NCBI RefSeq assembly: GCF_005938655.1
Contig: NZ_VCQT01000001.1
Span: forward strand, 1-64,000
Source: Alloalcanivorax gelatiniphagus
Lineage (GTDB): Bacteria > Pseudomonadota > Gammaproteobacteria > Pseudomonadales > Alcanivoracaceae
DNA: 64,000 bases
Direction of reading: 5' to 3'
Shown: positions 8,860 through 32,489 of the stretch, one piece after another
How positions within the stretch are numbered: position 1 is the stretch's first letter
How the letters are laid out: each line of letters starts with the position of its first letter
Notes under the pieces: generated by a model
Seen by the model: the letters and a program-made list of their open reading frames with translations, nothing else
Told to the model about the DNA's origin: nothing
The model's database searches: none
Position numbers and translations under genes: made by a program

Positions 8860-8904
8860 AGCGGTCGAGATACTAAAAACATGGGAATTATGGGGATTTG
8901 TTGT

Positions 8905-12272: not shown

Positions 12273-15096
12273 GAAGCGCGATTGAACGCATCCAAAAGCG
12301 ATGACGATCTGGCTTTAGAAGAAACAGAAAGTTCTTGTCGTATAATCGAGTAATGCGCGTAACGGTGAGGCTGGATCCTCGTCGCTGATAAAGAAGAGCA
12401 TCCAGACGATCACGCAGCTCGCCGGCGCCTGACCAATCCACCGTTCCATCACCAAATGCGTATGCTTTGCAAATGGCGCCTGGCCATTGCTCTGAAGGAA
12501 GTGCCTGAAGTTGGCCTTCTCCATAGACTCCATTGATCTGCGAAACAAGAACGCGATCAAACGCTTCAAGGGCGTCTGTCGAAACTTTCTGCATCGCAGG
12601 AGAGCTGGTGCCGAGTCTGATGAAATCACGCTGGAACGATACGATATCTTCCGCAATAATTTTCTCATTGGCACTTAAGTCTAGATCCCTTTCTTCTGGA
12701 TAGGGGATGGAAAAAATATCAGCATTAAATATAGAGGTGGCTCGTTGCGTAAAGAGGCGAGAACTTATTCCGGCAACATAGGCGCGTAATGCAACTGACT
12801 CCTTTTTAAGCCAGTTGGCGATCTGCGAAAGCTCCTCGGGGTCGTCAGGGGCGGAAAAGCCAACGATTTCGTTCTTGTAAGTCAAATAACCGTCTTTCCA
12901 TACATCAAAATAAAGATTTTCGTGCTCCTTAATGAGAAGAAGAGGAGCGGCAAAGCGATTGGCTGACTTAGGGTCTTTGACTGGATCGTCTGGAACGTCG
13001 ATTATAAGGGAGCGATCAATGCCTTTAGCCCCCAGCGCTTGAGTGGGCAGCAACGGCTTACCAATCAAATGCTGAGTATTGTCGGAACTGTTTTTTTGCC
13101 CACCAAAATATCCTTCGCCAAAATCCCAGCCTCTCTCGGTGGCAAACTCTTTTAACGTTTTATAGCCGCGCAAACGGGTAATCATTTCATGGACGCGATT
13201 ACCTCCTAGTAGGTTCGCTCGCCAAATATCCTGCGAGCAGGTTGCATCTGCGTTGCGTAGCCAGTGCAAATCGTAATAGTCTATATCGAAGCCCTGCTCA
13301 GCGGTGGCACGTCCATTTCGTCGAAAGACCGCATGTAGAACGCGGCCGTCTGGCTTAGAACTTGTTGCCTCGGCAATGACAATAATGATCTTGGGGTCTG
13401 CACCCCCTTTTTTGAAAAGTCCCCGAACTGATACAAAGTCTAAAATCTCACGCGTCTTCCAGCGACTTAAAAAAGATCGGCGGAACGAGAGCGAATGCTG
13501 GTTGTAGAGAAAGCCTGCTGGTTCGACCATTGCCAGCACGCCATTTTCTTCCAACATCTCCATTGCTTCATGGAGAAAGAGGTATGCCAATTGCTTGTCC
13601 GCGAGATAATCATGTTTTTTCTTATAAGAATCGTAGCAACGTCGAGCGCCCTCTGTTGTGAGAGACGACGCAAACGGTGGGTTTCCAACAATGACTGAAA
13701 TTGGTGATTTTACCAGCTCCATTTGCTTCGCATCGAAAAAACAACTGTGGTGAAGAGTGACGTCGGCGAGCGGCGGGAATAGTTTAACGCTGGAGCGAAT
13801 TTCTTCCGGCTGTAGCGCGTCACAAAGGCTGAGGCAGAGGCTAAACGCAGCAAGCTCAATGGCGCCGTCTTCAACATCAATGCCATGAACTCGCTCCAAC
13901 AGTGAGCGCAAGTCATTTATGCTTGGGCGAACCCAGTCGTTGCGCCAACGCCAGTGCAGAACTAGTCGCTTGTAGGCCTCGACAAGAAAGACGCCAGACC
14001 CGCACGCTGGATCGAGGATCACACCTTCTCCAGCTGTTAGCTCGTCAAGCTTATCCCAACTCAACGTTTCTTCCAGCATAAGCCGAACTAAGGCCGGTGG
14101 TGTATAGATAGAACTTGATGCGTCTTTTACGAACAGTTGGTAGATATTGCTGATCAGCTCTATGGGCAGATCACGAAATGAATACAGACGCCAAAGACTC
14201 ATCTGGCCATTTCCGTCTTCATATCCCTCGACCAGCCGGGCGTAGTTTACAAGCTCAGTATTGTTTACCAGTGACAAGTGTTCTTCTTTTGTGAGGCGAA
14301 ATACATGGCCATTAAACCGTTCTTCCAGCGCTATAAGAAGTCTGGACAGCGCTTGGCCATCACCTAGGACCTCAAAAAAGCGTTTAGTTCCTCGACGCAC
14401 CTTTTCAAAGTCAGAAGGCAGAAGAACTGAGCGCTCTTCAAGGTAGGCAATGAGCAACGAGAGAATAAGAAGCTTTCGGCTTAGCTGAGGTGCAAGTAGC
14501 TTCCTTTCCGATAGACTTGCTGCTAATGCTCTGACAGCCTCAACCAGGGTACGATGCGCGGCCTTCTGTGCGGAAAGCATGAGCTTACAGACTTCTGGGT
14601 CATCCCAGATTGTTCCGTTTCGTATTCTGTTGGCGTCCCACCATGCGTCCTCAGCGGCTATCTGTGCACCTATGGCAAGGGTGCGCACCGGCTCGCAAAT
14701 CTGAGTGCCATCTTTGCCAACGAAATCCGGTGCGTGGGCGCAACGAAAGAGCTGAACAGAGCCAGGTAGTACTCGGTAAACGAGAGGGATGGCACCCCAG
14801 CTCCATAGGCGTTTATGCAGTTCGGCAAAGCCGGGATCATCTGGGTCATCACCAGAGTCGAATATAAAAGCTTGGGCAACAGGCGCCCTACCATGGCGGG
14901 AAGCCTCAAAAAAAACTGCACGCGCGCCATAGGAGCGCGCCTTTTCCATAATAGAAACTTCTTCCGGAGGCCTTCCTCTGTAATCGTAATCGCTGACGGT
15001 GACCAGTCCGTCAATATGGGATACGCGCCGGCCATCACCAGCCGGGAGCAACCAATCGACTGACGCTTGTGAGGCGCAGGGTTCGTCAAGTGTCAT
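12226..15096 (-). CDS. N6-adenine DNA methyltransferase (Eco57I/type IIG-like)
   Basis: This roughly 956-residue protein has the SAM-binding motif ILDPACGSGVFLVEA (about residue 360) and the catalytic motif VGNPPFAS (about 470), the NPPF signature of gamma-class N6-adenine methyltransferases. About 350 residues precede motif I without an evident nuclease active site, and a long C-terminal part probably forms the target-recognition region. That layout resembles Eco57I-type or BREX PglX-like enzymes, but no other BREX or DISARM genes are nearby. The ATG at 15096 is used; a GTG at 15105 is possible. The downstream overlapping nuclease gene is the likely partner. Confidence 0.8.
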   Translation of the reverse strand: MTLDEPCASQASVDWLLPAGDGRRVSHIDGLVTVSDYDYRGRPPEEVSIMEKARSYGARAVFFEASRHGRAPVAQAFIFDSGDDPDDPGFAELHKRLWSWGAIPLVYRVLPGSVQLFRCAHAPDFVGKDGTQICEPVRTLAIGAQIAAEDAWWDANRIRNGTIWDDPEVCKLMLSAQKAAHRTLVEAVRALAASLSERKLLAPQLSRKLLILSLLIAYLEERSVLLPSDFEKVRRGTKRFFEVLGDGQALSRLLIALEERFNGHVFRLTKEEHLSLVNNTELVNYARLVEGYEDGNGQMSLWRLYSFRDLPIELISNIYQLFVKDASSSIYTPPALVRLMLEETLSWDKLDELTAGEGVILDPACGSGVFLVEAYKRLVLHWRWRNDWVRPSINDLRSLLERVHGIDVEDGAIELAAFSLCLSLCDALQPEEIRSSVKLFPPLADVTLHHSCFFDAKQMELVKSPISVIVGNPPFASSLTTEGARRCYDSYKKKHDYLADKQLAYLFLHEAMEMLEENGVLAMVEPAGFLYNQHSLSFRRSFLSRWKTREILDFVSVRGLFKKGGADPKIIIVIAEATSSKPDGRVLHAVFRRNGRATAEQGFDIDYYDLHWLRNADATCSQDIWRANLLGGNRVHEMITRLRGYKTLKEFATERGWDFGEGYFGGQKNSSDNTQHLIGKPLLPTQALGAKGIDRSLIIDVPDDPVKDPKSANRFAAPLLLIKEHENLYFDVWKDGYLTYKNEIVGFSAPDDPEELSQIANWLKKESVALRAYVAGISSRLFTQRATSIFNADIFSIPYPEERDLDLSANEKIIAEDIVSFQRDFIRLGTSSPAMQKVSTDALEAFDRVLVSQINGVYGEGQLQALPSEQWPGAICKAYAFGDGTVDWSGAGELRDRLDALLYQRRGSSLTVTRITRLYDKNFLFLLKPDRHRFWMRSIALRDADDVLADLREQGF

Positions 15097-15143
15097 TTGG
15101 GGCACCGTTGAACTGAGATCGCCTGATTTTGGCAGACAGGGCC

Positions 15144-16761: not shown

Positions 16762-17652
16762 TTAATCCGCCATGGTGATCCAGCGTTCAATGTCCTGCAG
16801 GTTCTGAACGACGATTTGCTGCGCTTGCGGCGAGCGCTGTTCTGCCGGCAGGTCCACGCGGAGCTGCTGCAACAGATAACTGACCAGGGCGCCCCGAGTC
16901 TCAATCTTCAGTTGCTGGCGGACCATGCCGTAGTCCCTGGCGATCAACGCGCGCTGGGCGTCGGTGAGGCGCGGATCCGGCGTCAGGCGCACCGCCACCC
17001 GGGCACACCAGGCTGCATCGTCCTCGACGCCGCGGTCTGCCGGCAGAACCAGCTCCGGTCGATCGCTGATGCGGCTGAGCACGAAGTCTCTGAAGTCGCC
17101 GTTCTTCTCGCACCAGGCCCGTACATGCCAGCGGAAACCGGTATGTACCACGGTGTGCGGCTGGATCACCCTGAACTCGGGCTCAGGGTTCGCCAGCGAG
17201 GCGTACTCAATCTCCACTCGCTTCTTTTCCCGACAGGCCTGCAGTACCGGGCGCAACACCTCGGGACGCAGATCCCGAGCCGGCGGCAGCAGCACCTCGG
17301 TATTGAGCTCCCGTACCGTCAACGATTCGAGTGAGCAGGCCAGGTCCTCCCGGGCGTGCATCATCTGCAGGTATTCATCCGCCACGCCTCGGGTGAACAC
17401 CGGTCGGAAGTCCTCGGCGGGCCGGTAGCCCTTGAGGAAGCGGTCGTACTCCAAGTTGCCAGGCCCATAGTCGACCAGATAGGTGTTGATGTCCTTGCTG
17501 GCCTGCTGCCGGCCGATACCGAAAGCCCGCTTCAGATGATTGGTGGTCAGCCGTCCTTCCCACAGCGCCACCACCTCGATCAGACGGTAGCGCAGCAGCA
17601 AATCCCAGCGCACCGGCCATTCGCCGGCACTCTTTCGCGCGGTACGGACCAT
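16762..17652 (-). CDS. WYL-domain regulator of the BrxR/CapW type
   Basis: An N-terminal winged helix (about 15-70; LTTNHLKRAFGIGRQQASKD contains the recognition helix) is followed by a WYL domain (VEIEYASLANPEPEFRVIQP, then HTVVHTGFRWHVRAWCEKNG and RDFVLSRI) and a C-terminal WCX region. The 296-residue length and order match BrxR/CapW repressors that control BREX, CBASS and other defence loci. AGGAG sits six bases before the ATG. The gene is divergent from the TPR/helicase pair and begins ten bases from a direct-repeat leader that recurs upstream of the type I R-M genes, so control of both is plausible. Confidence 0.85.
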   Translation of the reverse strand: MVRTARKSAGEWPVRWDLLLRYRLIEVVALWEGRLTTNHLKRAFGIGRQQASKDINTYLVDYGPGNLEYDRFLKGYRPAEDFRPVFTRGVADEYLQMMHAREDLACSLESLTVRELNTEVLLPPARDLRPEVLRPVLQACREKKRVEIEYASLANPEPEFRVIQPHTVVHTGFRWHVRAWCEKNGDFRDFVLSRISDRPELVLPADRGVEDDAAWCARVAVRLTPDPRLTDAQRALIARDYGMVRQQLKIETRGALVSYLLQQLRVDLPAEQRSPQAQQIVVQNLQDIERWITMAD

Positions 17653-17661
17653 CCCCGTCTC

Positions 17662-17758
17662 CTGCCTGAAAATACGACATGTTCATGTAGCCAGTATAGC
17701 CATGTCAATAGTAGCGCCATATATTGGTGCGTGTCACGGACGGAGACTTGAGGCAAGG
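17662..17758 (+). promoter_or_regulatory. Defence leader/operator, copy 1
   Basis: The first 21 bases are identical to the start of a second copy at 22287-22381, and the similarity continues through CATGT boxes, a GTCACGGA block and GGCA. Within it CGACATG-TT-CATGTAG is a near-perfect dyad, and GACATG-N19-CATGT is kept in both copies. Located between the BrxR-like gene and the rightward TPR/helicase genes, it is the likely repressor target. Confidence 0.65.
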
Positions 17759-18192
17759 ACGCCAATATTTCATGACTTACCTAACGGGCTGGCATGAAGT
17801 AAAGGTTGTGATAAGGTTCTCAAAAAAGGCCGGAACACCGGTTTAAACGCGGCAGCACGCCGTGCCGCCCTATATTGGGCTGGAGGGGTAATGGAAAGGG
17901 TAATTCAAGGATTGAAGACGTTCTGGCACGCGGGGAAGAATTGTGGTTCCTCAGGATCGAGATCCTGTCCGCGTCCAATACGAATAGGGCGGAGGAAGTC
18001 GGACGTCGCTTGGAAAACTCCTCTGCCTCCTTTGAATGTGTCTTCATCGTTCCGGAAATTGATCTCATCCCGGAGCGCCGGTAAACCCGTTGATCATTTC
18101 CCTCCAGACTCTTTCCGCACGCTCCTCGACCTCTTTAGCCTCATGAAGATTCCGTCTCAGCGAACAAGCCATGAAATAAAAAGGTGCTGCGT
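17759..18192 (+). other. Leader with decayed HEPN-gene start, no intact gene
   Basis: TGTGATAAGGTTCTC followed by an A-run at 17807-17830 matches a segment at 23211-23234. The ATG at 17891 (MERVIQGLKTF) resembles the start of the HEPN pseudogene at 23294 (MQRTHQGLKAR), but the frame degenerates after about 11 codons. A second frame ending at 18084 (ARGEELWFLRIEILSASNTN) looks protein-like without a good start. I read the region as the shared leader plus relics. Confidence 0.4.
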
Positions 18193-19416
18193 GTGACTGT
18201 TTCGGTGCTTCAAAGGGCTGAACGCCTGTTCCGATCAGGTGAGTGGGCCGAAGCGATCGACTCACTCGAAGCGCACCTGAGAACCCACCCGTTGGACAAA
18301 AAGGCGGCTGGTGTGCTCGGAAAGATCTATGTAAAGACTAAAAAGCCAGAGTTGGCAGCATATTGGTTAAAATATTCCTTGGGAATAGCGGGCAATAGCC
18401 GCTGGCGTCGGTCTGCTGAGTCTAGCTCCCATGTGGAACAAAGCGAAATTGATCTATATGACCTCGAATACACCAAGAACTTAAATGAAGTTTCTAAACA
18501 CTATAACCCTCATGACGGTTACGGTGCTGACATCGAAAGGTCCGATGATCAAGAGGCTGCGCAACTGAAGGCCTGCCCGGGAAAAGGCGATGTAGTCGGT
18601 CCGGATGATGCGGAAGATGACTTCGGACCTGAGCCTGACCTGGAAGTCGGATCCGACTTCGAAGTCGATGACGAAGACCTCAAGTTCTTCGCTGTAGATG
18701 ACGATGAAGAAGCCGGGCTCGAGGAGGACACCGATGAGCTTCTGATAGATGCGGATCTCTATAGTGAATGTTCCAGCCATGCAGATTTTGAAGAGCCTGA
18801 AGAACTGCCTAGTCGACTAACCGATCTGGAGAAAGCACAGCAACTTGCGACGGCCCTTGCCGTGGATGCGGATTGGCCAAAGAAAGATCTAGGTGTTCTG
18901 GCTGAGATCCTGGCATACCACCGAAACAGTGGAAGGACACGAGAAGCCCTAGAATCCCTTTTGTTGAATGAAGGTGTTGACGTCTATGAGCTTGTGATGC
19001 TTCACGAGATTCGGTTGCTGTGGGGCGGAGCGGGGTATAGTCGATACTACTTCCGAGGAAAGGCCATAGACGGCGGACCGGCAATATCATGGGTTCTCGC
19101 TCTAAAAGTCGTGCGGCAACTCCAGGCCAGCAGCGCCGAGGAAGTGCTGTTGTTCATCGAAGACTGCTTCCAACAATGGAGCGACACCAGATACTTAATC
19201 TATCAGTTCGCGGCGTTCAGTCAGTACCTGAAACACATCATAGAGCATATGCAAGATGTGTCAGAGCGCTGCGGTCAGCCACCTCCGCCATTCATAGATT
19301 TTGATCTGTTTGGAGAGGTCGAGGGTACCTATGGAGGCTGGAGCATGCACAGGGAGAGCGTCCCTTATGGATATAATATTATAAGTTTGATGCCCGGAGA
19401 CGGAGAGTGGAGATGA
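18193..19416 (+). CDS. TPR-like protein with acidic centre, helicase partner
   Basis: A GTG at 18193 follows AAGG by eight bases; a GTG nine bases earlier lacks such a site. The N-terminal 60 residues (LQRAERLFRSGEWAEAIDSL and AAGVLGKIYVKTKKPELAAY) read as a pair of tetratricopeptide-like hairpins. Residues about 110-210 are strikingly acidic (Asp/Glu runs such as DDDEEAGLEEDTDELLIDAD), and a mixed C-terminal domain follows. Acidic stretches like this often mimic DNA or contact basic partners. The stop overlaps the helicase start by four bases (ATGA), indicating translational coupling. I do not recognise a named family. Confidence 0.65.
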   Translation: MTVSVLQRAERLFRSGEWAEAIDSLEAHLRTHPLDKKAAGVLGKIYVKTKKPELAAYWLKYSLGIAGNSRWRRSAESSSHVEQSEIDLYDLEYTKNLNEVSKHYNPHDGYGADIERSDDQEAAQLKACPGKGDVVGPDDAEDDFGPEPDLEVGSDFEVDDEDLKFFAVDDDEEAGLEEDTDELLIDADLYSECSSHADFEEPEELPSRLTDLEKAQQLATALAVDADWPKKDLGVLAEILAYHRNSGRTREALESLLLNEGVDVYELVMLHEIRLLWGGAGYSRYYFRGKAIDGGPAISWVLALKVVRQLQASSAEEVLLFIEDCFQQWSDTRYLIYQFAAFSQYLKHIIEHMQDVSERCGQPPPPFIDFDLFGEVEGTYGGWSMHRESVPYGYNIISLMPGDGEWR

Positions 19417-22223
19417 TGGAGCCTGTAGGAGGGGCTTTAGTTGCGCCCGCCGCCGACAAAAATAATAGCACTTTAGGCGTTGTAAGGTCAGTCGGAGAGA
19501 GAGGCGCGAACAAGGTCAAGGTCTACTGGGTAAAAGATGATGACGTACGCTGGCATAATTTATCAGAGATTCGCTCAGCTCTTCGGGTAGGGCATCAGGT
19601 TCTTCATAAGCCGGCATATAGAGCGCAGCGATCTTTGGGTTGGGGTGTTGTTCGATCTACTCGAGAAATCGCCGGTAACGACCAAGTTTTGGTGGAGTTT
19701 CCCGAAAAGGATAAACGAGTATGGTTGCCATGGCAGCGCCTTATGATGATCCGGGGTGTAAAGCACGCATTCTTTACCGGAAAGCTGGGCGACGGTGATG
19801 CCGCCGAGCGTCAGAGACTGAGGATACTTGCCTGGGCAATTCGTCTCTGGAACGAAAATACTGGTGCTTTGGCGTCTTTTGATATTGACCCACTACCACA
19901 CCAGATCCATCTTGTTCATCACATTCTGGCTTCTGGTCAATATAACTGGCTGATCGCGGATGATGTCGGCCTTGGGAAAACCATCGAGGTCGGCCTGCTT
20001 TTGTCGGCACTCCGGCAGCGTGGCGAAGCTCGTCGCGTCCTCCTCGTCACTCCGGCCGGATTGACGCGGCAGTGGCAGGAGGAGATGTCCGGAAAGTTCG
20101 GCCTGAATGAATTCTTGGTATACGGTGATGACTTCACTGTAAACGACCCAAGACACTGGAAGATGTTTGATAATGTTGTAGGTTCCATGGATCGCCTTAA
20201 ACAGGATGAGCATCTTGACTCTCTCATGCAAGCAGAGCCATGGGATCTGATTATTGTCGATGAAGCACACCGGTTCACTCGCAGGCAGTATGGCAACAAG
20301 CTCGACGCTAGTCAGAGATATGAGATGTTGCAGAAGCTGAGACGTCGCACTGAATCCATGCTTTTGCTTACCGCCACACCGCATCAGGGAAAAGAGGATA
20401 GTTTCACAGCGCTTCTTGAGCTTCTTCAACCGGAAAGAAGGGAAGAACTTAACACCCTCTCAATAAATCCGGAAATTATTGGAGAAATGGTGATCAGAAA
20501 TTATAAGGCGGACGTCACGGACATGGATGGAAACTTTATATTTTTTGGAAAGACGGTCACGCAGATCAATATCCCATCTTCAGAAGCCTTTCAGAACTTC
20601 GATAACATGCTCCGTGACTATTTGAAAAAAGGCTATGCGGCAGAATCAGCCCTAAATAGCAATAAAGGACGTGCTATCGGCTTTGTCATGGCTGTCTACC
20701 GTAAGCTTGCCTCCTCTAGCGTTGCCGCCATTCACAATGCGCTAGTTAAGCGTAGGGAGCGTCTCCAGGGCCGGCTGAAGGAAGAGGATGGCGACGACGA
20801 GGACGGTCGCTATCAAGGTGAAGTGGAGGAGCGGGCGGTCTATAAAACCGAAGCAACTCCATTTTTTGAGGGGGAAGAGGCGCTCCTCGAGGATTTGATT
20901 GACGAAGCACATTACCTAAAGGGCGTGGATTCCAAAATCGATGCTTTCATGAAATCGATAGTTGATGTGATCGTTGCGAGCAATATAAAAGAGAAGGTTT
21001 TGGTGTTTGCGGAGTATCGTAGTACACAGAGCTGGATTGAGCAGGCACTTAAGTCTCGTTTTGGAGAGAGCAGCGCCGTGTTAATCCATGGCGGCATGAG
21101 CATGGACGAAAGACGTTCAGCGATCGACAGCTTTGAAGATGCAAGCGGAGCCCAGTTCTTAGTCTCTACGGAGGCTGGCGGTGAAGGCATAAATTTGCAA
21201 CATCAGTGTCATATCATGGTCAATTACGATTTGCCCTGGAACCCTATGCGGTTGGTGCAACGCATGGGGCGCTTGTACCGATACGGTCAGGAAAAGCGAG
21301 TGATCGTTTTTAATATGCACCAAAGTGCTAGTGCGGACGATCAAATTATAAACATTCTGTATCAGCGTTTGGATAAAGTTGCTGAGGATATGGCGAATGT
21401 TGAAAAGCATGAATATAACGAGGCGTTAAAAGACGATGTCTTGGGTGAGCTGGCTGATCTCATTGACATAGAGGAAGTCTTGATTTCCGCAAGTAATGAA
21501 ACGATCGCTCGGACAGTTGAACGAGTTGACGAAGCTTTAGAGCGTGCAAGAAATGCTTCAAGTAAGCAGCATGAATTGTTCCAACATGCTGCAAGCTTTG
21601 ACGGAAAAGAGCTAGATGGTGTTGTTAGCATTTCCGCTGCCCATTTGCAGGCGTTCGTTGAAGGAATGTGCAGAATTCTAGGTATTGAGATCCTTGAAAA
21701 GACCCACAAAGGGCTGGTGTGGCAGTTGCGGTTTTCCGATGAAGTCAAGGAGGCGACGGGGGTTTCTCGCAGCCGGTGGGGTGTTGTGTTCGACCGGATG
21801 CTTGCAACCCGAAGGAAAGACTTGCTTCCCATCACCACAGATAACTGGTTCTTCCAGTATTTGCTGAGTACGGCGGCAGACTATGAATTTGGTGGCGTGG
21901 CTGCGGTTTCGGGGCAGCTGGGAAGTGATTGGCTGCTGACGGCGGTAGCAAGGTGGCAAACCGATAGGGGGCGCCGCGCGCGCCAAGAACTGGCTCTTAT
22001 CGGGGTTGAGAATGGTAAAGCTATCTTAAATCCCAAATGGGTCCCAAGCTGGCTATGTCAGCCGCTCTATGATGACCAGTTAAATCTGCCAGATAAAGCA
22101 CAGGCTAAGCAGGCGTTCGAATTGGCCCAGGACAAAGTGGAAAGCTTCCTCGTGGAAAAAAGCAGCAAAGCCTTGTTGCCGGATGAGGCTCAGTGGCTGG
22201 CAGGAGCGGGAAGGGCAGTTTAA
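19413..22223 (+). CDS. SNF2/RapA-like DEAH helicase
   Basis: About 936 residues. Two small beta-rich modules lead (LGVVRSVGERGANKVKVYWV and LGWGVVRSTREIAG), recalling RapA/Tudor-like N-termini. The ATPase core has motif I ADDVGLGKTIEVGL (about 185), motif II IIVDEAHRF (about 282), motif III LLTATPHQGKED, and the second RecA fold with STEAGGEGINLQ and QRMGRLYRYGQ (about 615), all SNF2 features. The rest is an uncharacterised C-terminal domain. SNF2 proteins translocate on double-stranded DNA; here a defence role is inferred from the coupled TPR-like gene, the BrxR-like regulator and the neighbouring R-M genes. No nuclease motif is evident. Confidence 0.8.
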   Translation: MMEPVGGALVAPAADKNNSTLGVVRSVGERGANKVKVYWVKDDDVRWHNLSEIRSALRVGHQVLHKPAYRAQRSLGWGVVRSTREIAGNDQVLVEFPEKDKRVWLPWQRLMMIRGVKHAFFTGKLGDGDAAERQRLRILAWAIRLWNENTGALASFDIDPLPHQIHLVHHILASGQYNWLIADDVGLGKTIEVGLLLSALRQRGEARRVLLVTPAGLTRQWQEEMSGKFGLNEFLVYGDDFTVNDPRHWKMFDNVVGSMDRLKQDEHLDSLMQAEPWDLIIVDEAHRFTRRQYGNKLDASQRYEMLQKLRRRTESMLLLTATPHQGKEDSFTALLELLQPERREELNTLSINPEIIGEMVIRNYKADVTDMDGNFIFFGKTVTQINIPSSEAFQNFDNMLRDYLKKGYAAESALNSNKGRAIGFVMAVYRKLASSSVAAIHNALVKRRERLQGRLKEEDGDDEDGRYQGEVEERAVYKTEATPFFEGEEALLEDLIDEAHYLKGVDSKIDAFMKSIVDVIVASNIKEKVLVFAEYRSTQSWIEQALKSRFGESSAVLIHGGMSMDERRSAIDSFEDASGAQFLVSTEAGGEGINLQHQCHIMVNYDLPWNPMRLVQRMGRLYRYGQEKRVIVFNMHQSASADDQIINILYQRLDKVAEDMANVEKHEYNEALKDDVLGELADLIDIEEVLISASNETIARTVERVDEALERARNASSKQHELFQHAASFDGKELDGVVSISAAHLQAFVEGMCRILGIEILEKTHKGLVWQLRFSDEVKEATGVSRSRWGVVFDRMLATRRKDLLPITTDNWFFQYLLSTAADYEFGGVAAVSGQLGSDWLLTAVARWQTDRGRRARQELALIGVENGKAILNPKWVPSWLCQPLYDDQLNLPDKAQAKQAFELAQDKVESFLVEKSSKALLPDEAQWLAGAGRAV

Positions 22224-22286
22224 ACGTTGCTGTCGACCGATCGATCCATTGCTAGCATTCATACGGCGCCGCCAGATTCCGATCTT

Positions 22287-22381
22287 CTGCCTGAAAATAC
22301 GACATGTCCATGTCGTCAGCATGGTCATGTAGATAATGGCGTCATAAAGTAACTTCTGTCACGGAAGACGTTTCGGGCAGG
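22287..22381 (+). promoter_or_regulatory. Defence leader/operator, copy 2
   Basis: Its first 21 bases are identical to the leader beside the BrxR-like gene, followed by CGACATG-TC-CATGTCG, here a perfect dyad, and the conserved CTGTCACGGA block. It reads toward the lipoprotein and the type I R-M operon. No regulator gene starts next to it, so it probably arose by duplication of the first copy. Confidence 0.65.
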
Positions 22382-22515
22382 GATGCCCCATTCCGCTGGC
22401 CGGGTTGGCCGGGCTGGTATCCACGGAGAGGATCGTGGGCCTATATGTTGGCCAGTCAGCCGGCATGGACAAGAAAGGGCCGCTATCGGTCTCAAAAATT
22501 GAAGGGGGAAGGCTT

Positions 22516-23139
22516 ATGAAGCACTACATTGGTATTTCACTAATGCTTTTAGGACTCTGGGGCTGCACCGCCGCGCCCGTGAAGGAACTTCCAGAGAACG
22601 TCACGCTTTCGGAGCCGCAGTCGCGCATGGGATCCACGGTCCGCTTGGTGGACGCCGTAACCTTCGAGCGCCAGGGCGCCGTGAAGCAAAGCCCGGCTAC
22701 CTGCGTGTCGCTTAATGTGGACAACAGCGAGGTTACCCTGAGCGATAGCTCGGCGTCGTTCGTCGGCGCGTATACTGGCACCTACTACGACATCGAGAGC
22801 AGCCGGAAAGAAGGGGGAGGCGCCACGCTACAGCACGCCGATGAGGAGAGTGGCGTCGTGGTGGCCAAAGGCGTCACCGAGTACACATCGGGCGGTTTGA
22901 TGCCCATCGGTCACGCGGCCAGGTACAAGCTGCTAGTCGCCCCCATGCCGGGCAAGACGGTTGTTCAGTTCAAAGACATTGAATATGCCCAGAAATCAAC
23001 TGGTTACATGGAGAATACGGGATTTCAGCGGCTGGGCACCTGGTGGGGCTCAGGGGTGATGGATGCCTACGCGGCGATGGAACAGCAGGCAGACAAGGTG
23101 CTGGACTGCATCTACTCGGAGTCGCTGGTCGGCGAGTGA
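22516..23139 (+). CDS. Putative lipoprotein inside the R-M leader region
   Basis: GGGGGAAGG precedes ATG at 22516. The 207-residue product starts with a lipoprotein signal (MKHYIGISLMLLGLWGC, lipidated Cys17) and has a mature domain with two further cysteines (ATCVSLN and VLDCIYS) that could pair. A glycine-rich hairpin and the segment GGLMPIGHAARYKLLVAP are notable, but no family is recognised. It separates the copy-2 leader from the segment matching 17807-17830, so it may be a later insertion. Confidence 0.65.
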   Translation: MKHYIGISLMLLGLWGCTAAPVKELPENVTLSEPQSRMGSTVRLVDAVTFERQGAVKQSPATCVSLNVDNSEVTLSDSSASFVGAYTGTYYDIESSRKEGGGATLQHADEESGVVVAKGVTEYTSGGLMPIGHAARYKLLVAPMPGKTVVQFKDIEYAQKSTGYMENTGFQRLGTWWGSGVMDAYAAMEQQADKVLDCIYSESLVGE

Positions 23140-23293
23140 TCACTCACTCTGCCCGCTCTTGGCATGCTGTTGCATCAATTGCCTTGACCAGGCTGGCGCC
23201 CCATTCAGACTGTGATAAGGTTCCAAAAAAAGCGTTATTGGCCAGAAGGTCGCGGAACGCTGTGTCGCTCGGAGCGGGCGATTAGGGAGGGGC

Positions 23294-23773
23294 ATGCAAA
23301 GGACTCATCAGGGGCTGAAGGCGCGCCAGCGCGCCGAACGGGTCGGCTATTCCGACAATCTGGGGCTGCGCGTCCACCGAGCTTTAAGCTGGCTGGACCG
23401 TGCCGAGCATGAGGCGGATCCGGATAGTCGCTTCATTTTCCTGTGGATTGCCTTCAACGCCGCCTACGCCAAGACATTGATGATCGGTTTCACCTCAACG
23501 AGCCAGCCAGCTTCAAAGCCGCCAAGAAAGCCGCTAACCACTCCCTGGCCAGACAGGATACACCGGCGGTGCCTATCTATCGTCTCCAGCCGCATTTACA
23601 TCCTACGTAACCAGATCATCCACGCCGGCGCGACTTGGAACGGTAGTGTCAACCGTGTGCAAATTCGCGATTGTGTCGCGATCCTCGGTGATTTGGTGCC
23701 TCGGGTCATCGAAGTGATGATGGACAATCCCGGGGGGCTCTGGAGCGAGGCCGGCTACCCAGTAGTAGGATAG
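23294..23773 (+). pseudogene. Disrupted HEPN-domain gene
   Basis: The N-terminal part (GLRVHRALSWLDRAEHEADP, then FIFLWIAFNAAYA) and the C-terminal part (SRIYILRNQIIHAGATWNGS and VAILGDLVPRVIEVMMDN) are those of a HEPN protein, including the RNxxxH-type catalytic motif. Between them the open frame gives nonsense. The real sequence (FHLNEPASFKAAKKAANHSL, then ARQDTPAV) reads in the next frame, and the stretch between the first part and this one seems to be deleted. The gene therefore carries a deletion and two frame shifts. The 160-codon frame that stays open should not be read as an intact protein. It precedes the R-M operon. Confidence 0.65.
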
Positions 23774-23826: not shown

Positions 23827-25536
23827 ATGAAGCAAACAGAACAGGAATTCCTTAAAAGTCTAGACGACAAGCTCTGGAAAGCCGCCGACAAGCTCCGCGC
23901 CAACCTGGATGCCGCCAATTACAAGCACGTGGTGCTGGGCCTAATCTTCCTGAAGTACGTATCCGATGCGTTCGAGGAACGGCAGGAAGAGCTGTTGGAA
24001 CAGTTTAAAGATGAGAACGACGACGTCTATTACCTGCCGCCGGAAGACTGCGACGACGAGGAGGACTACCAGCAGGCCCTGCTGGAGGAGCTAGAAGTAC
24101 TGGACTACTACCGCGAAGCCAATGTGTTCTGGGTTCCGAAACCCGCCCGCTGGAACACCCTGAAAGAAAAAGCTGTGCTGCCTGTGGGGTCCGTGCTCTG
24201 GCAGGACGATGCAGGTAACGATGTGAAGATGCGTTCCGTGTCCTGGCTGATCGATAATGCCCTGGAAGAGATTGAACAGAATAATCCCAAGCTCAAGGGC
24301 ATTCTCAATCGCATCAGCCAGTATCAGTTGGAGAACGAAAAGCTGCTGGGCTTGATCAACACCTTCTCTGATACTTCGTTCACCAAGCCAGTGTTCGGTG
24401 GCGAGAAGCTAAGCTTGCAGAGTAAAGACATCCTCGGCCACGTCTACGAATATTTCCTGGGCCAGTTTGCTCTGGCTGAAGGCAAGCAGGGCGGCCAGTA
24501 CTACACGCCTAAAAGCATCGTTACCCTTATTGTGGAGATGCTTGAACCTTACTCCGGCCGAGTATACGACCCCGCTATGGGCTCCGGCGGCTTCTTTGTT
24601 TCCAGCGACAAGTTTATCGAAGAACACGCCAAAGAGCAGCACTACGACCCCAGCGAACAGAAGAAGCACATTTCCGTATACGGCCAGGAGTCCAATCCCA
24701 CCACCTGGCGGCTAGCGGCAATGAACATGGCCATTCGGGGTATCGATTTTAACTTCGGCAAGAAAAACGCGGATACCTTTCTGAACGACCAACATCCAGA
24801 CCTTCGCGCCGACTTCGTGATGGCCAACCCACCCTTCAACATGAAGGACTGGTGGAGCGAATCCCTGGCCGAAGACAGTCGCTGGAAATACGGTACCCCT
24901 CCCAAGAGCAACGCCAACTTCGCGTGGATGCAGCACATGATCCACCACCTGGCACCCACCGGTAGTATGGCGCTGCTCCTCGCCAACGGATCCATGAGCT
25001 CCAACACTAACAACGAAGGCGAGATCCGCAAGCGCTTAGTGGAAGAAGACCTGGTGGAATGCATGGTCGCCTTGCCCGGTCAGCTGTTCACCAATACCCA
25101 AATCCCAGCCTGTATCTGGCTCCTAACCAAAGACAAAGCAAACGGTCTGGTGCGTAACGAGAAGAAGCGCGACCGTCGAAAAGAGCTTCTGTTTATCGAC
25201 GCCCGCAACCTGGGATTTATGCGAGACCGGGTACTGCGAGACCTCGCCATCGAAGACATCGCCAAAATCGTTAACACCTTCCGAAGGTGGCAACGTGGAG
25301 ACGGCTACGAGGATGTCAAAGGCTTCTGCAAAGCTGCCAGCCTGGACGAAATCAAAAAGCATGATTTTATGTTGACACCTGGTCGCTACGTCGGTGCACA
25401 GGAACAGAAAGAGGATGACGAGCCCTTTGCCGAGAAAATGGCACGGCTTACCGGACAGCTGCGTGACCAGTTTGCGAGTAGCGACGAGCTTAAAGCCGAA
25501 ATTATGCGAAATTTGAAAGGGCTGGGGTATGAGTAG
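23827..25536 (+). CDS. hsdM: Type I restriction-modification methyltransferase subunit
   Basis: The 569-residue protein begins with the helical HsdM_N domain (KQTEQEFLKSLDDKLWKAAD, then LIFLKYVSDAFEERQ). The N6-adenine methyltransferase core follows with VYDPAMGSGGFFVS (motif I, about 250) and MANPPFNMKDWW (motif IV, about 335). HsdM pairs with HsdS to methylate the bipartite target and joins HsdR for restriction. It overlaps hsdS by eight bases. This is the first gene of the operon and is more GC-rich than hsdS. Confidence 0.95.
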   Translation: MKQTEQEFLKSLDDKLWKAADKLRANLDAANYKHVVLGLIFLKYVSDAFEERQEELLEQFKDENDDVYYLPPEDCDDEEDYQQALLEELEVLDYYREANVFWVPKPARWNTLKEKAVLPVGSVLWQDDAGNDVKMRSVSWLIDNALEEIEQNNPKLKGILNRISQYQLENEKLLGLINTFSDTSFTKPVFGGEKLSLQSKDILGHVYEYFLGQFALAEGKQGGQYYTPKSIVTLIVEMLEPYSGRVYDPAMGSGGFFVSSDKFIEEHAKEQHYDPSEQKKHISVYGQESNPTTWRLAAMNMAIRGIDFNFGKKNADTFLNDQHPDLRADFVMANPPFNMKDWWSESLAEDSRWKYGTPPKSNANFAWMQHMIHHLAPTGSMALLLANGSMSSNTNNEGEIRKRLVEEDLVECMVALPGQLFTNTQIPACIWLLTKDKANGLVRNEKKRDRRKELLFIDARNLGFMRDRVLRDLAIEDIAKIVNTFRRWQRGDGYEDVKGFCKAASLDEIKKHDFMLTPGRYVGAQEQKEDDEPFAEKMARLTGQLRDQFASSDELKAEIMRNLKGLGYE

Positions 25537-26851
25537 GGGAAGACTATCTGAGCTCGTTGAATTCAATCCCAAAAGGCCTTTAAAAAAAGAAAGTTTGGCG
25601 CCTTTTGTTGACATGGCCTCTTTGCCTGAGTCAAGCAGGGATATCTCCAGTGTCAGTAAACGTGAATTTAAGGGAGGGGGAGCCAGATTCATAGATGGAG
25701 ATACTCTTTTTGCGCGTATAACCCCATGCTTAGAAAACGGTAAGACTGCGAAAGTGTCCGGGCTTGGGCACGGTGTCGTAGGTCATGGGTCGACTGAATT
25801 TATTGTGATGGCGGCTAAAGACCCGACTGTAGACGAGGACTTCATTTACTATTTGGCCAGAACGCCGGAGTTCAGAGCTTATGCTCAAGCAAGAATGGAG
25901 GGCACATCCGGTCGCCAGCGTGTCTCCTGGCAATCGCTCTCAGACTTCGAACTTGAGATACCTGATGCGAATGTAAGAAAGCTGGCTGGAGATATACTGA
26001 GAGCATTTGACGATAAAATTCAGGTAAACCGGAAAATTAACGAAACCCTTGAAAAGGTGGCTCAGGCTATTTTCAAAAGCTGGTTTGTTGATTTTGAGCC
26101 GGTCAAAGCCAGAATGGCGACTCTGGAAGCTGGGGGCAGCGAGGAAGATAGCGTGCGTGCCGCTATGCAGAGCATTGCCGGCAAGACGAACGACCAGTTA
26201 GCCCGCCTCCAGGTCGACCTTCCAAAGCAACACGCCGATCTCCGTGCCATTGCCCAGCTATTTCCATCCGCGATAAAGAATAGTGAGTTGGGGGACATTC
26301 CGGAAGGATGGCAAGTCACGACCTTTGGCGAGGTATCTACTTGTATGGATAAACATCGAATTCCCCTTTCAAAGATTCAGCGCGAAAAGAAGAAAGGAAG
26401 CATACCGTATTTTGGTGCAACATCGATTATGGACTATGTCGACGAATATATTTTTGATGGTGTTTACTTGTTGATTGGGGAAGATGGTTCGGTCCTTAAA
26501 GAAAGCGGGGCGCCATTTACCCAATATGTTTGGGGTAAGATGTGGGTAAATAATCATGCTCATGTGATTCAGGGCGTTTCTCCCGTATCTACTGAGCAAC
26601 TTTTGCTTTTTATCAAAAATAAGAATATCGCCCCCTATGTTACCGGTGCTGTTCAGCTCAAGTTGAACCAAAAAAACATGAATAGCATACCTTTTATAAG
26701 AGCGGGGCGTGGGGTTTGCGAGGCTTTTGATGAAATTGCGAAGCCGATTTTCGAAGAAATTAGAAATCGGTATGATGAATCATATGTCTTGGCAAGAACT
26801 AGAGATTCATTACTGCCCCAGATTTTGTCAGGCGTTAGGGTTTTCAAATGA
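25529..26851 (+). CDS. hsdS: Type I restriction-modification specificity subunit
   Basis: The 440-residue protein has two target-recognition halves, each ending in a conserved helical spacer (AFDDKIQVNRKINETLEKVA, then QAIFKSWFVDFEP; later FDEIAKPIFEEIRNRYDESY). The second half starts at the ELGDIPEGW motif typical of HsdS TRD2. The subunit recognises the split DNA target and assembles two HsdM. The variable TRD stretches are clearly AT-richer than the central spacer, as expected for exchanged specificity domains. The stop overlaps the next start by four bases. Confidence 0.93.
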   Translation: MSRGRLSELVEFNPKRPLKKESLAPFVDMASLPESSRDISSVSKREFKGGGARFIDGDTLFARITPCLENGKTAKVSGLGHGVVGHGSTEFIVMAAKDPTVDEDFIYYLARTPEFRAYAQARMEGTSGRQRVSWQSLSDFELEIPDANVRKLAGDILRAFDDKIQVNRKINETLEKVAQAIFKSWFVDFEPVKARMATLEAGGSEEDSVRAAMQSIAGKTNDQLARLQVDLPKQHADLRAIAQLFPSAIKNSELGDIPEGWQVTTFGEVSTCMDKHRIPLSKIQREKKKGSIPYFGATSIMDYVDEYIFDGVYLLIGEDGSVLKESGAPFTQYVWGKMWVNNHAHVIQGVSPVSTEQLLLFIKNKNIAPYVTGAVQLKLNQKNMNSIPFIRAGRGVCEAFDEIAKPIFEEIRNRYDESYVLARTRDSLLPQILSGVRVFK

Positions 26852-27519
26852 AAGTCGAGGTTTCTTATTGCCTGGTGAAAGCTGAGGCCAACGGCGACAA
26901 ATATAAGATCAAGAAAACTATTGCTGCTATCAATAGTAGCCTTTTAGAAGGTGAATCTGGCTTGGTGGTCGGTCAGTGCAAAGCGCTAATTGAAAGGCTT
27001 TGCAAATCCGTCCTAAAGGAAAGCGGAGAGGATGTTGAATCGAGCATCTCAATGGGTCGGCTTGCAAAGAAAGCAATCACAGCGCTTGGCGTGGAGAGAA
27101 CGGGGAATGAAAACCAAAAGACTCGAGAGGCTTTTATAAAGTTAGTTAATTCATTCTCTTCTCAGCTTGAAAACGCGGCAGGTGCTATAGGCACATTACG
27201 GAATGAATACTGTCCTGTTGCGCATGGTCGTGGTTATGATGAGCCCCAGTTGCATATGCTCTATGCCCACTTGGTTGCCTCGCAAACAGATTCATTGGCA
27301 ACGTTCATATTGGAACTTGTGGAGCACAAGATGAACTTCGTGCCACAGATTAGGTTTTCTGACAACGAGGACTATAACGAGCATCTTTATGAGCAGTTTG
27401 GTGAGATCGAGGTATACGGGGACCTCTACCAAGCACCTGATATTCTTTTCAAAATGAATCCGTCGGTTTATAGGCGCGGCCTTGAGGAATACCGGGAGGG
27501 GGGCGTCGATGATCAATGA
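26848..27519 (+). CDS. Abi_C/HEPN-type protein embedded in the R-M operon
   Basis: A 223-residue protein with the C-terminal abortive-infection (Abi_C) pattern: [20 protein letters not shown], then [14 protein letters not shown], where the RN...HG motif is the hallmark of this HEPN-like group. HEPN domains are often RNA-cleaving toxins. It overlaps hsdS by four bases and hsdR by eleven, so it is made with the R-M subunits. This recalls PrrC, an anticodon nuclease encoded within a type I R-M operon and released when restriction is blocked. That function here is inference, and no NTPase domain is present. Confidence 0.7.
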
Positions 27520-30500
27520 AAGTACTCTTGAGTTGAATTGTTTAGCTTGGTTTGAGCAAGGCGGGTGGGAGGCCGTAAATGGAGCTGATGCTGCACCGGA
27601 TAGCTCAGACCCGGCTCGCGCAACATATCGTGATGTTTTGTTACTTCAAGATCTCCGCGCAGCGCTCGAGCGAATTAATCCTCATATGCCAGCACAAGCG
27701 CTCCAACATGCTGTGGATATCGTGCGGAAGCCAGAAAGCTTGGATGTAGCGTTCAGTAACCGAGCTTTCCACCGTCTTCTTCTGGATGGCGTACCGGTTG
27801 AGTATAAAAGTGACGATAAAGTGGTTCACGACAGGGCGTTTCTGGTGGACTTCGCCGATCTAGATGCCAACCGATTCCGAGCCATCAGCCAGTTTACCCT
27901 TGAAGGGACCAAGCAACTGCGCCGACCGGATGTCGTCTGTTTCGTCAATGGTCTGCCATTGGCGGTACTGGAGCTGAAAAGCCCCGGTATCGAGAATGTG
28001 AATATCTGGGACGCTTATAATCAGATTCAGACCTATAAAGACGAAGTCCCCGACCTGTTTGTCTACAACGAGGCCGCGATCATCAGTGATGGCTACCTCG
28101 CCCGGGTAGGCTCGCTTACGGCCAACCAGGAGCGCTATATGCCCTGGCGCACTCTTAAACACGAGGACGATAAGCCCCTGCTGGAATGGCAATTGGAAAC
28201 CATGGTCCGGGGGTTCTTCGACCGCGAGTTGTTCCTGGATTACATCCGCTACTTCGTGATTTTCGAAACGGAATCCGACAACCTGGTCAAGAAGATTGCA
28301 GGCTACCACCAGTTTCATGCGGTGCGCGAGGCCGTTCGAGCAACCGTCATTGCGGCTCAGGACACTGGCGGCTACGGGATCAGAGAGAAGCGGGCGACTT
28401 ACGGCGACGAGGTGGTTCCCGGTAGCAAGAAAGCGGGCGTGGTTTGGCACACCCAGGGCTCCGGTAAGAGTATTTCCATGTGCTGTTACGCCGGCAAGCT
28501 ACTTCAACAGCCGGAGATGAACAACCCTACCCTGATCGTGGTAACCGATCGCAACGATCTGGATGGTCAACTCTTTGCGACCTTCAGCGGGGCCCGGGAG
28601 TTGCTCAAACAAGAGCCGGTACAGGCTGATGACCGTGACGCGCTGCGCCAGCTTCTATCGGAGCGGGAATCTGGCGGCATCATCTTCACCACGGTTCAGA
28701 AGTTCGCCCTGCTGAACGACGAGACCGGGCACCCTGTTCTCAATGATCGACACAATATCGTAGTGATTTCAGATGAGGCTCACCGCAGTCAGTACGGCCT
28801 GAAGGCGACTCTCAAGAAGGACGGCACCTACAAGTTCGGCTACGCCAGGCACATGCGCGATGCCCTGCCCAATGCCTCCTTCATCGGTTTCACCGGAACT
28901 CCTATCGAAAGCGAAGACAAAGACACTCGCGCGGTGTTTGGCGATTACGTTTCCATCTACGACATCCAGGACGCGGTGGACGATGGCGCGACGGTGCCGA
29001 TTTTCTACGAATCGCGCTTGGCTAGGCTGGACATCAATCGCGACGCGATCGAGGAGCTGTCCGAACAGGTCGAGGAAGTCGTTGAAGACGAGGAGGATGT
29101 TGGCAGCCGTGAGAAAACCAAAGGTGAATGGAGTCGGTTGGAGAAGCTGGTAGGCGCCGGACCGCGCCTGGAGCAGGTGGCGGAAGATCTGGTGAGCCAC
29201 TATGAAACACGCTCAAGATCAATCGATGGTAAAGCCATGATTGTGGCTATGAGCCGGGAAATCGCCGTTCACCTGTATAACGAGATTGTCGCTCTCCGCC
29301 CCGAGTGGCACGACGACGATCCGGAGAAAGGCGCCATCAAGATCGTGATGACCGGCTCCGCCTCCGACCGCGCTCTGCTGCAACCCCATATCCACAACAA
29401 GAAGACCAAAAAGCGGTTCGAGAAGCGCTTCAAGGACATTAACGATCCGCTCAAGTTGGTGATCGTGCGGGATATGTGGCTCACCGGCTTTGATGCACCT
29501 TGCTGCCACACCATGTACGTGGACAAGCCCATGAAGGGCCATAATCTGATGCAGGCCATCGCGCGCGTAAACCGTGTGTTCAAGGACAAGCCGGGCGGGT
29601 TGGTGGTCGATTACATTGGCATTGCCAACGAACTGAAACACGCTCTGAAGACCTACACTGACTCCAAAGGAAAGGGATCGCCCACCCACAGCGCCGAAGA
29701 GGCCTACGCTATCCTGCTGGAAAAGCTGGATATCGTCCATGGCATGTTCGCGCCTGGACCACAGGGTAAGGGATTCGACTACAGCGCCTTTGAAACCGAA
29801 CCGCATAAGCTATTGGTGCCTACCGCCAACTATGTTCTCAGCCTGGAGGGTGGGAAGAAGCGATTCCTGGATACCGTGCTGGCCATGAATAAGGCTTTCT
29901 CCCTGTGCGCCACCCTGGACACCGCCCAGGCACTACAGAAGGAGGTAGCGTTCCTATCCCAGGTAAAAATAGCCATTACTAAGTTCACCAGCGTGGACAA
30001 AAAGCTGACGGAAGATGAGAAGAACACCGCCTTGAAGCAGATCCTGGACAATGCGTTGGTCGCCGAGGGCGTAACCGATGTATTTGCGCTATGCGGCCTG
30101 GAGAAGCCGAATATCGGGTTGCTCTCCGACGAATTCCTGGAAGACGTTCGACAGATGCCCTACAAGAACTTCGCCGTGGAGCTTCTGGAGAAGCTGCTCA
30201 AGGATGACATTAAGGCTAAGACCCGGAACAACGTGGTGCAGGAGAGGAAATACGGCGACCGGCTTCAGGAGACGCTGCGCAACTACAACAACAGAGGTAT
30301 CGAAACGGCGCAGGTCATTGAAGAGCTGATCGCCATGGCCAAACAGTTTCAGGCGGAGATGGAGCGGGATGCTGCTCTCGGACTCAACCCGGACGAGGTG
30401 GCCTTCTACGATGCTTTGGCCAGCAACCAAAGCGCAGTTCGCAAGTTAGGTGACGAAACCCTGAAGAAGATCGCCGTGGAGATCACCGAGAAACTGCGCA

Positions 30501-30667
30501 GGTCCACTACCGTGGACTGGCAAGTGAGGGAAAGCGTTCGGGCCAAGCTGCGGATTTTGGTGCGGAGAACATTACAGCGCTACAAATATCCGCCGGATAA
30601 AGCGCCAGCGGCGATTGAGCTGATCATGGAGCAAGCGGAAGCGTTATCGAACCACTGGACGCAGTGA
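27509..30667 (+). CDS. hsdR: Type I restriction endonuclease subunit
   Basis: The ATG at 27509 has a strong GGGAGGGGGG site. The 1052-residue protein has an N-terminal HSDR_N nuclease ([20 protein letters not shown]; Asp about 140, ELK about 154), then a superfamily 2 translocase with [13 protein letters not shown] (about 312), [13 protein letters not shown] (about 420), GFTGTP and [11 protein letters not shown] helical C-terminal region for complex assembly follows. HsdR pulls DNA and cuts it far from the unmethylated target. All motifs are intact, so the system looks functional. The first 100 codons are AT-richer than the rest. Confidence 0.95.
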
Positions 30668-32269: not shown

Positions 32270-32423
32270 TGATACCTCCAGTTGGTGGTCACCAAGGGTT
32301 CGATTCCCTGGGCTCATGGAAGTAATGTGTACCTGAAAAAATCTCGAATAGAGCGCCGATACCCCAGGCGGGCAGCGTGTCCGGGCGTGCTGTACGTTGG
32401 CTGGAGTTTTAGAGCGCGGTGGT

Positions 32424-32440: not shown

Positions 32441-32489
32441 GATTAGACGGGATGATCGAGAGGAAATGGCGTTAGCGCGAAGGGGAAGG

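Follow-up and report, generated by a model that had tools for sequence, protein, structure and literature searches.

The first 64,000 nucleotides of contig NZ_VCQT01000001.1 of Alloalcanivorax gelatiniphagus (Alcanivoracaceae), hereafter the window, carry two copies of a conserved leader, the first next to brxR, the gene for a BrxR/CapW-type WYL domain repressor, and the second upstream of type I restriction-modification (R-M) genes and without an adjoining brxR. The leader is conserved in related bacteria and tracks with BrxR. As judged by sequence comparison, it is probably the autoregulated divergent promoter/operator of the repressor, with copy 2 placing the operon of lipoprotein, HEPN-like and type I R-M genes under the control of the same repressor.

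Two copies of the brxR leader in one island

In agreement with the original prediction, copy 1 is flanked on one side by the start of the BrxR/CapW-like gene, encoded on the minus strand, and on the other by the TPR/SNF2 gene pair; copy 2 starts 50-60 nt past the SNF2 stop codon (Table 1). The predicted 21-bp identity between 17662-17682 and 22287-22307 is exact, and the similarity beyond this core, put at about 95 bp, takes the form of an ungapped match of 90 nt with 74% identity (17651-17740 and 22276-22365). Both dyads that had been proposed, CGACATG-NN-CATGT(A/C)G and GACATG-N19-CATGT, are found in both copies (at 17675-17690 and 17676-17705, respectively, in copy 1). The likeness outside the first 21 bases is beyond chance because a profile of 18 leaders, with copy 1 in and copy 2 out, retrieved copy 2 in a whole-genome search with a score of 49.1 bits (E=1.4e-12); copy 2 is, by this score, a second box akin to the first within one island, as in the pEFER system discussed below. 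Downstream of copy 2 lie the lipoprotein gene, an apparently broken HEPN-like gene and then the type I genes, in the order hsdM, hsdS, Abi_C and hsdR.

The leader tracks BrxR in Alcanivoracaceae

The search of related genomes that the original prediction had suggested was run on 46 Alcanivoracaceae genomes with R1, a sequence-only model built from 18 brxR-adjacent leaders with copy 2 left out (cut-off E<=0.001). It yielded 38 leader matches in 23 of the 46 genomes, and a protein search of the same genomes detected 30 full-length BrxR orthologues (>=65% identity) in exactly these 23, so that the leader is present in 23/23 genomes with full-length BrxR and in 0/23 without it (hypergeometric probability of 1e-13, with kinship among the genomes ignored). 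The leader adjoins all 30 full-length genes; as expected of BrxR/CapW regulators, each repressor gene is thus preceded by a conserved site that contains dyads and overlaps a predicted promoter; in G038, the distance from the leader to the brxR start is about 370-380 nt, with a small open reading frame (ORF) between them. No leader match adjoins the two partial BrxR orthologues, each about 200 residues long (in G014 and at a second locus of G034), or the remote WYL proteins of the family (about 34% identity or less).

Leaders without an adjoining brxR (hereafter orphan, as opposed to attached, leaders) are recurrent. There are eight of these in 7 of the 23 leader-bearing family genomes (G000:C1:22284, which is copy 2 of the window, G004:C1:2510511, G004:C1:2525967, G009:C21:55395, G020:C54:28200, G023:C29:9434, G027:C67:129045 and G038:C7:37631), each on the same strand as a brxR-adjacent leader 1.4-15.4 kb away, and six more non-adjacent matches were found outside the family, along with one probable chance match.

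Promoters and half-sites within the leader

The 38 family hits are represented by 29 aligned rows (21 attached and 8 orphan) with 28 distinct cores, in which column 1 is the G of GACATG (17676 and 22301 in the window). The cores contain three half-site-like blocks (columns 0-6, CGACATG; columns 9-14, CATGTA; columns 24-32, nGnCATGnC) and, 17 nt apart, the hexamers TnGnCA (columns 22-27) and TAnnnT (columns 45-50). In the second hexamer, T45, A46 and T50 are invariant (28/28); in the first, T22 and A27 are kept in 26/28 cores, and G24 and C26 in 25/28. This arrangement fits a sigma-70-like promoter directed towards the defense operon, with 3-5 of 6 matches per hexamer, and strong conservation fades about 10-15 nt past the -10 element. 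That the element works as RNA, either as an attenuator or as a riboswitch, might be suggested by its position in 5' regions and its richness in dyads, but the conserved columns match the -35/-10 spacing and the half-sites and do not extend far beyond the -10 element, which makes such a role barely credible.

The putative BrxR site overlaps this promoter. In other families, the core reads CGACATGTATATGTAGCCAnTATATACATGTCG (17 of the 20 out-of-family sequences; G075, G142:C12 and G307:C1 were left out of the column count as having no leader or a weak one). CGACATGTATATGTAGCCAnTATATACATGTCG encompasses an outer dyad centered on column 16, which is the predicted N19 dyad, and an inner dyad centered on column 19, with GTA-type triplets at -7 to -5. 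The site upstream of a plasmid-borne BrxR relative from Acinetobacter johnsonii, ATACCGTAAA-AAATG-TTTACTGTAT, follows a 10-5-10 layout in which 9 of 10 positions pair and GT occupies -7/-6, and passages of the report on BrxR from Acinetobacter NEB394 (BrxR_Acin; Luyten et al. 2022, PMC9122589) describe a 25-bp site, located at about -51 to -27, in which a 5-bp spacer separates two 10-bp halves and R38 contacts the G:C and T:A pairs at +/-6 and 7. The inner dyad would therefore fit the BrxR geometry, although the symmetry evidence on its center is mixed (see below). The left half-site in the family has G at -7 in 28/28 cores and T at -6 in 27/28, and the proposed site would span about -51 to -27, as in BrxR_Acin, if transcription starts 7-8 nt past the -10 element.

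Under the mechanism that we propose, a BrxR dimer would sit on the CATG-type half-sites, over the -35 element of the defense operon and beside the brxR promoter, and would keep expression low for brxR itself as well as for the TPR/SNF2 pair and the R-M operon. The WYL domain would sense a ligand, single-stranded DNA (ssDNA) in the case of CapW/BrxR, whereupon the dimer would release the DNA and both operons would switch on together. The ssDNA-triggered release of CapW/BrxR is stated, on the authority of another paper, in a passage of PMC13373217.

The repressor and its paralogue

The solved structure closest to the WYL protein of the window is that of Acinetobacter BrxR (7t8k, E=2e-61), followed by the WYL protein 7tb5 and CapW (9c5g and 7tb6), with E values of 5e-44 to 2e-43. 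The base-contact motifs of BrxR_Acin, RQQ (residues 48-50) and KGY (74-76), are present in this protein and conserved in all 18 family BrxR proteins that were checked, among them the two paralogues of this genome; the first motif reads GRQQ in all 18, with G replacing the S of the (S)RQQ typical of the BrxR_Acin branch. The closest named relatives belong to Alcanivoracaceae, and the brxR of Alloalcanivorax venustensis is 93% identical.

Across the entire genome (4.2 Mb in 50 contigs), one more leader was detected, on contig C15; it adjoins a second WYL gene, 85% identical to that of the window. On its other side, this third leader faces the remnant of a HEPN-like gene together with an SbcD/SbcC-like pair that consists of a metallophosphoesterase and an AAA_23 ATPase (the latter with no PADLOC match at 1e-10). 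Given that the genome encodes two BrxR paralogues with the same DNA-reading residues, the single regulator of the original prediction could be two interchangeable ones, although the comparative evidence favors its general idea of a WYL regulator common to two units. It is also conceivable, albeit rather doubtful, that the C15 paralogue binds copies 1 and 2 instead of, or together with, the adjacent WYL protein: the C15 locus has the third leader and the paralogue the same recognition-helix and KGY residues, although each paralogue adjoins its own leader.

The C15-type brxR locus itself has a flank common to loci L005, L007 and L008, with mutS adjoining it in L005, and variable cargo; possibly, it is a fixed defense hotspot.

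Diverse defense genes follow the leader

Selected proteins encoded downstream of the leaders were scanned for known families and defense systems; the genes after the first G380 leader and a 97-aa ORF after the L006 orphan leader lay outside the family scan. Among the brxR-adjacent leaders, several head type I R-M genes (G001, G003 and G034, the last with an AAA_13 protein) or BREX (bacteriophage exclusion) genes (G016 and G027), one precedes Zorya ZorA and ZorD with an EH_Signature protein (G042), and another a PDC-S37/Hhe-like protein (G009, contig 39). Thus, as is typical of BrxR/CapW, a defense system adjoins the leader in the window and in relatives, though not at every locus: no defense match was obtained among the scanned proteins of G028:C35 (a 425-aa protein with no Pfam match, a beta-helix protein with no PADLOC match and an MCP), G036 (DUF4236), G038 (270 aa) and leader 1 of L008 (148 aa).

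The orphan leaders precede an equally mixed cargo: an operon of MPE, HEPN-like, TPR-like, SNF2 and type III methyltransferase genes in L008 (G023) and its G020 equivalent; at the two G004 leaders, a HEPN-like gene with two dynamin-like LeoA/LeoBC relatives past it, and an RMMBL metallo-beta-lactamase-fold protein; a HEPN-like gene with two SNF2 helicases in G009; an SbcCD-like pair, HKD-SNF2 and a type III methyltransferase in G038; and a 208-aa protein with no match in G027. Outside the family, the G142 leader is followed by PDDEXK, UvrD/PDDEXK and BREX BrxC genes, with BrxR on another contig, the second G380 leader by an AAA_11/AAA_12 MkoA-like protein, the G272 leader by a VWA protein, and the G269 leader by a DrmE_C protein after a 2138-aa protein. 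Of seven relatives of the window SNF2 helicase in other genomes (60-66% identity), six follow a BrxR leader on the same strand (G005, G009, G013, G020, G023 and G028; the exception is G018:C27), a count that leaves out two matches with 37-38% identity (G002 and G026).

Two observations on neighboring genes can be added. About 1.7 kb past hsdR, the window contains a HExxH-type gene (32397-32930), 67% identical to the gene after leader 1 of L008, with no leader match before it. In L006, L010, L014-L016 and L018, upstream of brxR, the operon also seems to open with a lipoprotein-like gene, although these six genes have no detectable kinship to the window lipoprotein, whose longer ORF (22405-23139) has no Pfam matches.

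Gain and loss at leader boundaries

Comparison of related loci indicates how additional copies could arise. L007 and L008 share flanks, and the one leader present in L007 can be aligned with each of the two in L008, between which lies an extra block that encodes a HExxH protein and, in antisense, a RelBE-like pair (identified by eye); L005 and L007 have the flank, brxR and leader in common, and only one of them has a metallophosphoesterase gene between the leader and the HEPN-like gene; and in L006, the orphan leader is preceded by a 65-bp match to the 3' flank and the last 16 bases of brxR. These comparisons show that cargo changes at the leader boundaries and that brxR can disappear from beside a leader that persists. 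The R-M operon, in turn, can occur untagged, given that in G008 an hsdR relative with 83% identity lies 2.4 Mb from the only leader of that genome; there, the DNA similarity begins at the hsdM start codon.

The L007/L008 pair could also be read as a sign that the leaders are end repeats used in recombination or integration of mobile cargo and are alike because of insertion rather than regulation. We find this very improbable: the leaders adjoin every full-length family BrxR gene as well as BrxR in other families, and no integrase was matched among the scanned proteins beside them, in a search that was not exhaustive.

A different possibility is that copy 2 is a passive relic of an inserted brxR-leader-cargo module that lost brxR, so that the R-M genes are no longer regulated. 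The remnant in L006 is such a loss made visible, and in a search of 1.5 kb upstream of 13 orphan leaders (G089 was left out), the only other candidate was a doubtful match to BrxR residues 12-43 beside one G380 leader (E=0.047), which may be another decayed brxR; the search also caught the 5' ends of nearby intact brxR genes in L008 and its G020 equivalent, and the remaining orphan leaders gave E values of 3.7 or worse. Signs of decay are found within some orphan leaders, too: the middle half-site is changed in 2 of the 8 rows (L006 and G009), the third half-site is decayed in the BrxR-lacking G269, the operon promoter of copy 2 matches at only 8 of 12 positions, and the promoters in the brxR direction are slightly weaker in orphan than in attached rows (mean matches of 6, 3.50/3.00 vs 4.05/3.62), a contrast that is only suggestive because copy 2 retains such a promoter. 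However, despite 26% divergence, none of the three half-site blocks of copy 2 has lost its CATG, T45, A46 and T50 are retained as well, and the orphan rows as a set match the operon promoter as well as the attached ones do (4.38/3.75 vs 4.33/3.81; 8 and 21 rows). On balance, passive retention appears unlikely, and continued regulation by BrxR remains the preferred explanation.

Leaders outside the family

R1 was also run on 390 genomes of the order Pseudomonadales, with Infernal's stricter filters, so that weak leaders may be missed, and a BrxR cut-off of E<=1e-40. Leader matches were detected in 26 of the 390 genomes, 15 of these outside the family (18 matches). BrxR is present in 108 of the 390 genomes and in 24 of the 26 with a leader and, outside the family, in 13/15 leader genomes vs 97/372 (hypergeometric probabilities of 1e-12 and 9e-7, respectively, again ignoring kinship). 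Of the 18 out-of-family matches, 11 are separated by no more than about 110 nt from the point where the alignment to a BrxR relative starts; the other seven are in G142:C16, G272:C3, G380 (two), G089, G269 and G075. The G075 match (E=5.5e-4) was treated as a chance one, the only WYL protein of that genome being 29% identical and encoded on another contig. At the G089 leader, the genes on either side point towards the leader, with no clear forward operon. In G380, a BrxR orthologue (G380:C1:2719503-2720369) is interrupted by two in-frame TGA stops, and the genome still has its two leader matches. The exact leader pattern had no matches in viral contigs and so shows no sign of phage-borne copies; a plasmid search returned 664 records with BrxR relatives, all below 60% identity.

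Evidence weighing against shared regulation

Several of our findings weigh against the regulation of both operons by the adjacent BrxR, or at least against parts of it. With respect to the promoters, a consensus scan at 9 of 12 detects the operon promoter of copy 1 but misses that of copy 2, reporting there only one in the brxR direction, and in that direction GTGACA-N17/18-TAnTAT is good in only 8/21 attached rows, while copy 2 keeps one. With respect to the operator, the family symmetry scan ranks the centers 27.5, 36 and 7.5 above 19; the best 25-mer is centered on column 1 in copy 1 (7 of 10) and on column 16 in copy 2 (8 of 10, against only 6 of 10 for column 19); the right half-site in the family has no fixed base at +6; and at three other plasmid BrxR loci, no more than 7 of 10 positions pair. 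In the window, the second leader lies about 1.5 kb away from hsdM, the interval contains two genes and a terminator-like site no better than chance, and the C15 paralogue could be the actual regulator. Finally, the G269 leader sits in a genome without BrxR at the cut-off used, and R1 detects a leader in only 24 of the 108 genomes of the order sample that encode BrxR, which implies that R1 models one operator branch and that most BrxR operators in the order escape it.

A second repeat associated with a HEPN-like gene

The original prediction included a further matching segment after each leader (17807-17830 and 23211-23234). The match is real (91% over 22 nt), but it is a separate element rather than a part of the WYL leader. 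A search of about 2.5 kb downstream of the 29 leader rows with a strict pattern found TGTGATAAGGTTC or a close variant in 12 rows that correspond to 10 places because marin1 and profu1 see the same site as marin2 and profu2; four xenomutans-type leaders carry the variant TGTGATAAAGTTCACA. The distance from the core start is 118-166 nt in win1, C15 and the four xenomutans-type leaders, and 0.9-1.1 kb in win2, venusB, marin2 and profu2; in L008, the repeat is directly upstream of a HEPN-like gene (219 aa, with an RNQIIHGG motif and no Pfam match), one 0.9-kb gene away from the leader. Given this variable distance and the position just upstream of the HEPN-like gene, about 1.1 kb from the leader in some relatives, we rejected the repeat as a leader component and consider it independent. 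A firm tie between the motif and the gene is weakened by the rows G005, G004a and G009a, where a HEPN-like gene is within range but the strict motif was not found. The repeat TGTGATAAGGTTC resembles a CRP/Vfr site (consensus TGTGA-N6-TCACA).

In many loci (among them L005, 9426-9806; L008, 6805-7464; and the window), the HEPN-like gene is accompanied by TPR and SNF2 genes, and perhaps the three form a defense system; both copies of the HEPN-like gene in this genome look broken. Elsewhere in the window, we observed a second WYL/WCX regulator of a different subfamily (343 aa, 8881-9912) and a large Eco57I/MmeI-like methylase (959 aa, 12226-15105), likely a further R-M gene.

Table 1. Features of the two leader regions in the window
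Feature	Position	Strand	Remarks
Leader copy 1, putative divergent promoter/operator region, brxR vs TPR/SNF2 operon	17654..17750	+	alignment, profile hit
Leader copy 2, no brxR adjoining	22279..22375	+	alignment, profile hit
Proposed 25-bp BrxR site, copy 1	17682..17706	.	10-5-10 layout, center 17694, overlaps operon -35; footprint uncertain
Proposed BrxR site, copy 2	22307..22331	.	same columns as copy 1; footprint uncertain
Predicted defense-operon promoter, copy 1	17697..17725	+	TAGCCA-N17-TATATT, 9 of 12
Predicted brxR promoter, copy 1	17708..17737	-	GTGACA-N18-TACTAT, 9 of 12
Predicted operon promoter, copy 2	22322..22350	+	TGGTCA-N17-TAAAGT, 8 of 12, below scan threshold
BrxR/CapW-type winged helix-turn-helix-WYL repressor gene, 296 aa	16762..17652	-	PF13280, E=5e-17
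TPR protein, 410 aa	18184..19416	+	Pfam TPR_16 below cut-off; relatives adjoin SNF2 genes in related loci
SNF2 helicase, 938 aa, BrxH/DrmD-like	19407..22223	+	
Lipoprotein gene	22516..23139	+	signal peptide and lipobox LLGLWGC from translation
HEPN-like gene, apparently broken	23294..23773	+	159 aa vs 219 aa in L008, middle part missing
Type I R-M operon	23827..30667	+	hsdM 23827-25536, hsdS 25529-26851, Abi_C protein 26848-27519, hsdR 27482-30667
Second repeat, copy 1	17807..17830	+	element seen before HEPN-like gene; only an apparent 5' remnant of the gene there, ORF 17891-18196, by eye
Second repeat, copy 2	23211..23234	+	element preceding HEPN-like gene

Relation to known regulators and implications

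That BrxR/CapW repressors are encoded beside diverse defense systems is already known, as is the presence of two boxes in the pEFER island. In the latter, from Escherichia fergusonii, passages of PMC9122601 (Picton et al. 2022) place R-BOX1 before brxR and R-BOX2 before brxA and report that one half-site is enough for repression, with the action of R-BOX2 given as the authors' hypothesis. The case described here is similar in that a WYL repressor of a defense island has two boxes, but in pEFER, both boxes belong to one contiguous island, whereas here, whole promoter leaders recur before unrelated operons in several genomes. With BrxR_Acin, the proteins share RQQ and KGY, and the 25-bp site proposed here, although of uncertain footprint, would have the same 10-5-10 layout over the -35 element; passages of PMC9122589 describe contacts by R38 and K64 and a site that precedes brxR at the head of the BREX operon, unlike the divergent brxR found here, and these passages report no second operator copy. 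CapW, which belongs to the same protein family, is described in passages of PMC9122588 (Blankenchip et al. 2022) as an autorepressor that is released on infection and controls the adjacent operon of CBASS (cyclic oligonucleotide-based antiphage signaling system). Judging from passages of PMC11804915 and PMC12340889, PafBC and DriD are WYL regulators with several target promoters, as proposed here, but activate DNA-damage responses rather than repress defense operons, whereas RptR (passages of PMC12255303) and CapK/CapS (PMC13373217) also repress defense operons but represent other protein families with other operators. We found no report of operator-only copies tagging separate operons in titles and abstracts of the open-licence literature, and such copies before different operons look new relative to pEFER.

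Defense genes cluster in islands, and joint switching of several systems within one island is poorly understood. The operator described here is recognizable both with and without the repressor gene, which makes co-regulation directly testable; furthermore, the leader predicts which operons are under a given BrxR and could be used to seek defense genes that lack a BrxR of their own. Taken together, the sequence comparisons suggest that one repressor can hold several defenses off and release them jointly, which would create a single weak point because blocking or mimicking BrxR release would hit all the tagged systems together. A bolder extension, which we put forward tentatively and with somewhat more doubt than conviction, is that the BrxR leader is a portable regulatory tag, such that recombination at the leader adds and removes defense cassettes between leader copies and a changing set of unrelated systems is kept under one ssDNA-responsive repressor. 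Some of these systems would be distant from it, as in G142, where a leader with AddAB-like and BREX genes and the BrxR gene are on different contigs. If this is the case, the chromosome would carry a plug-in defense regulon.

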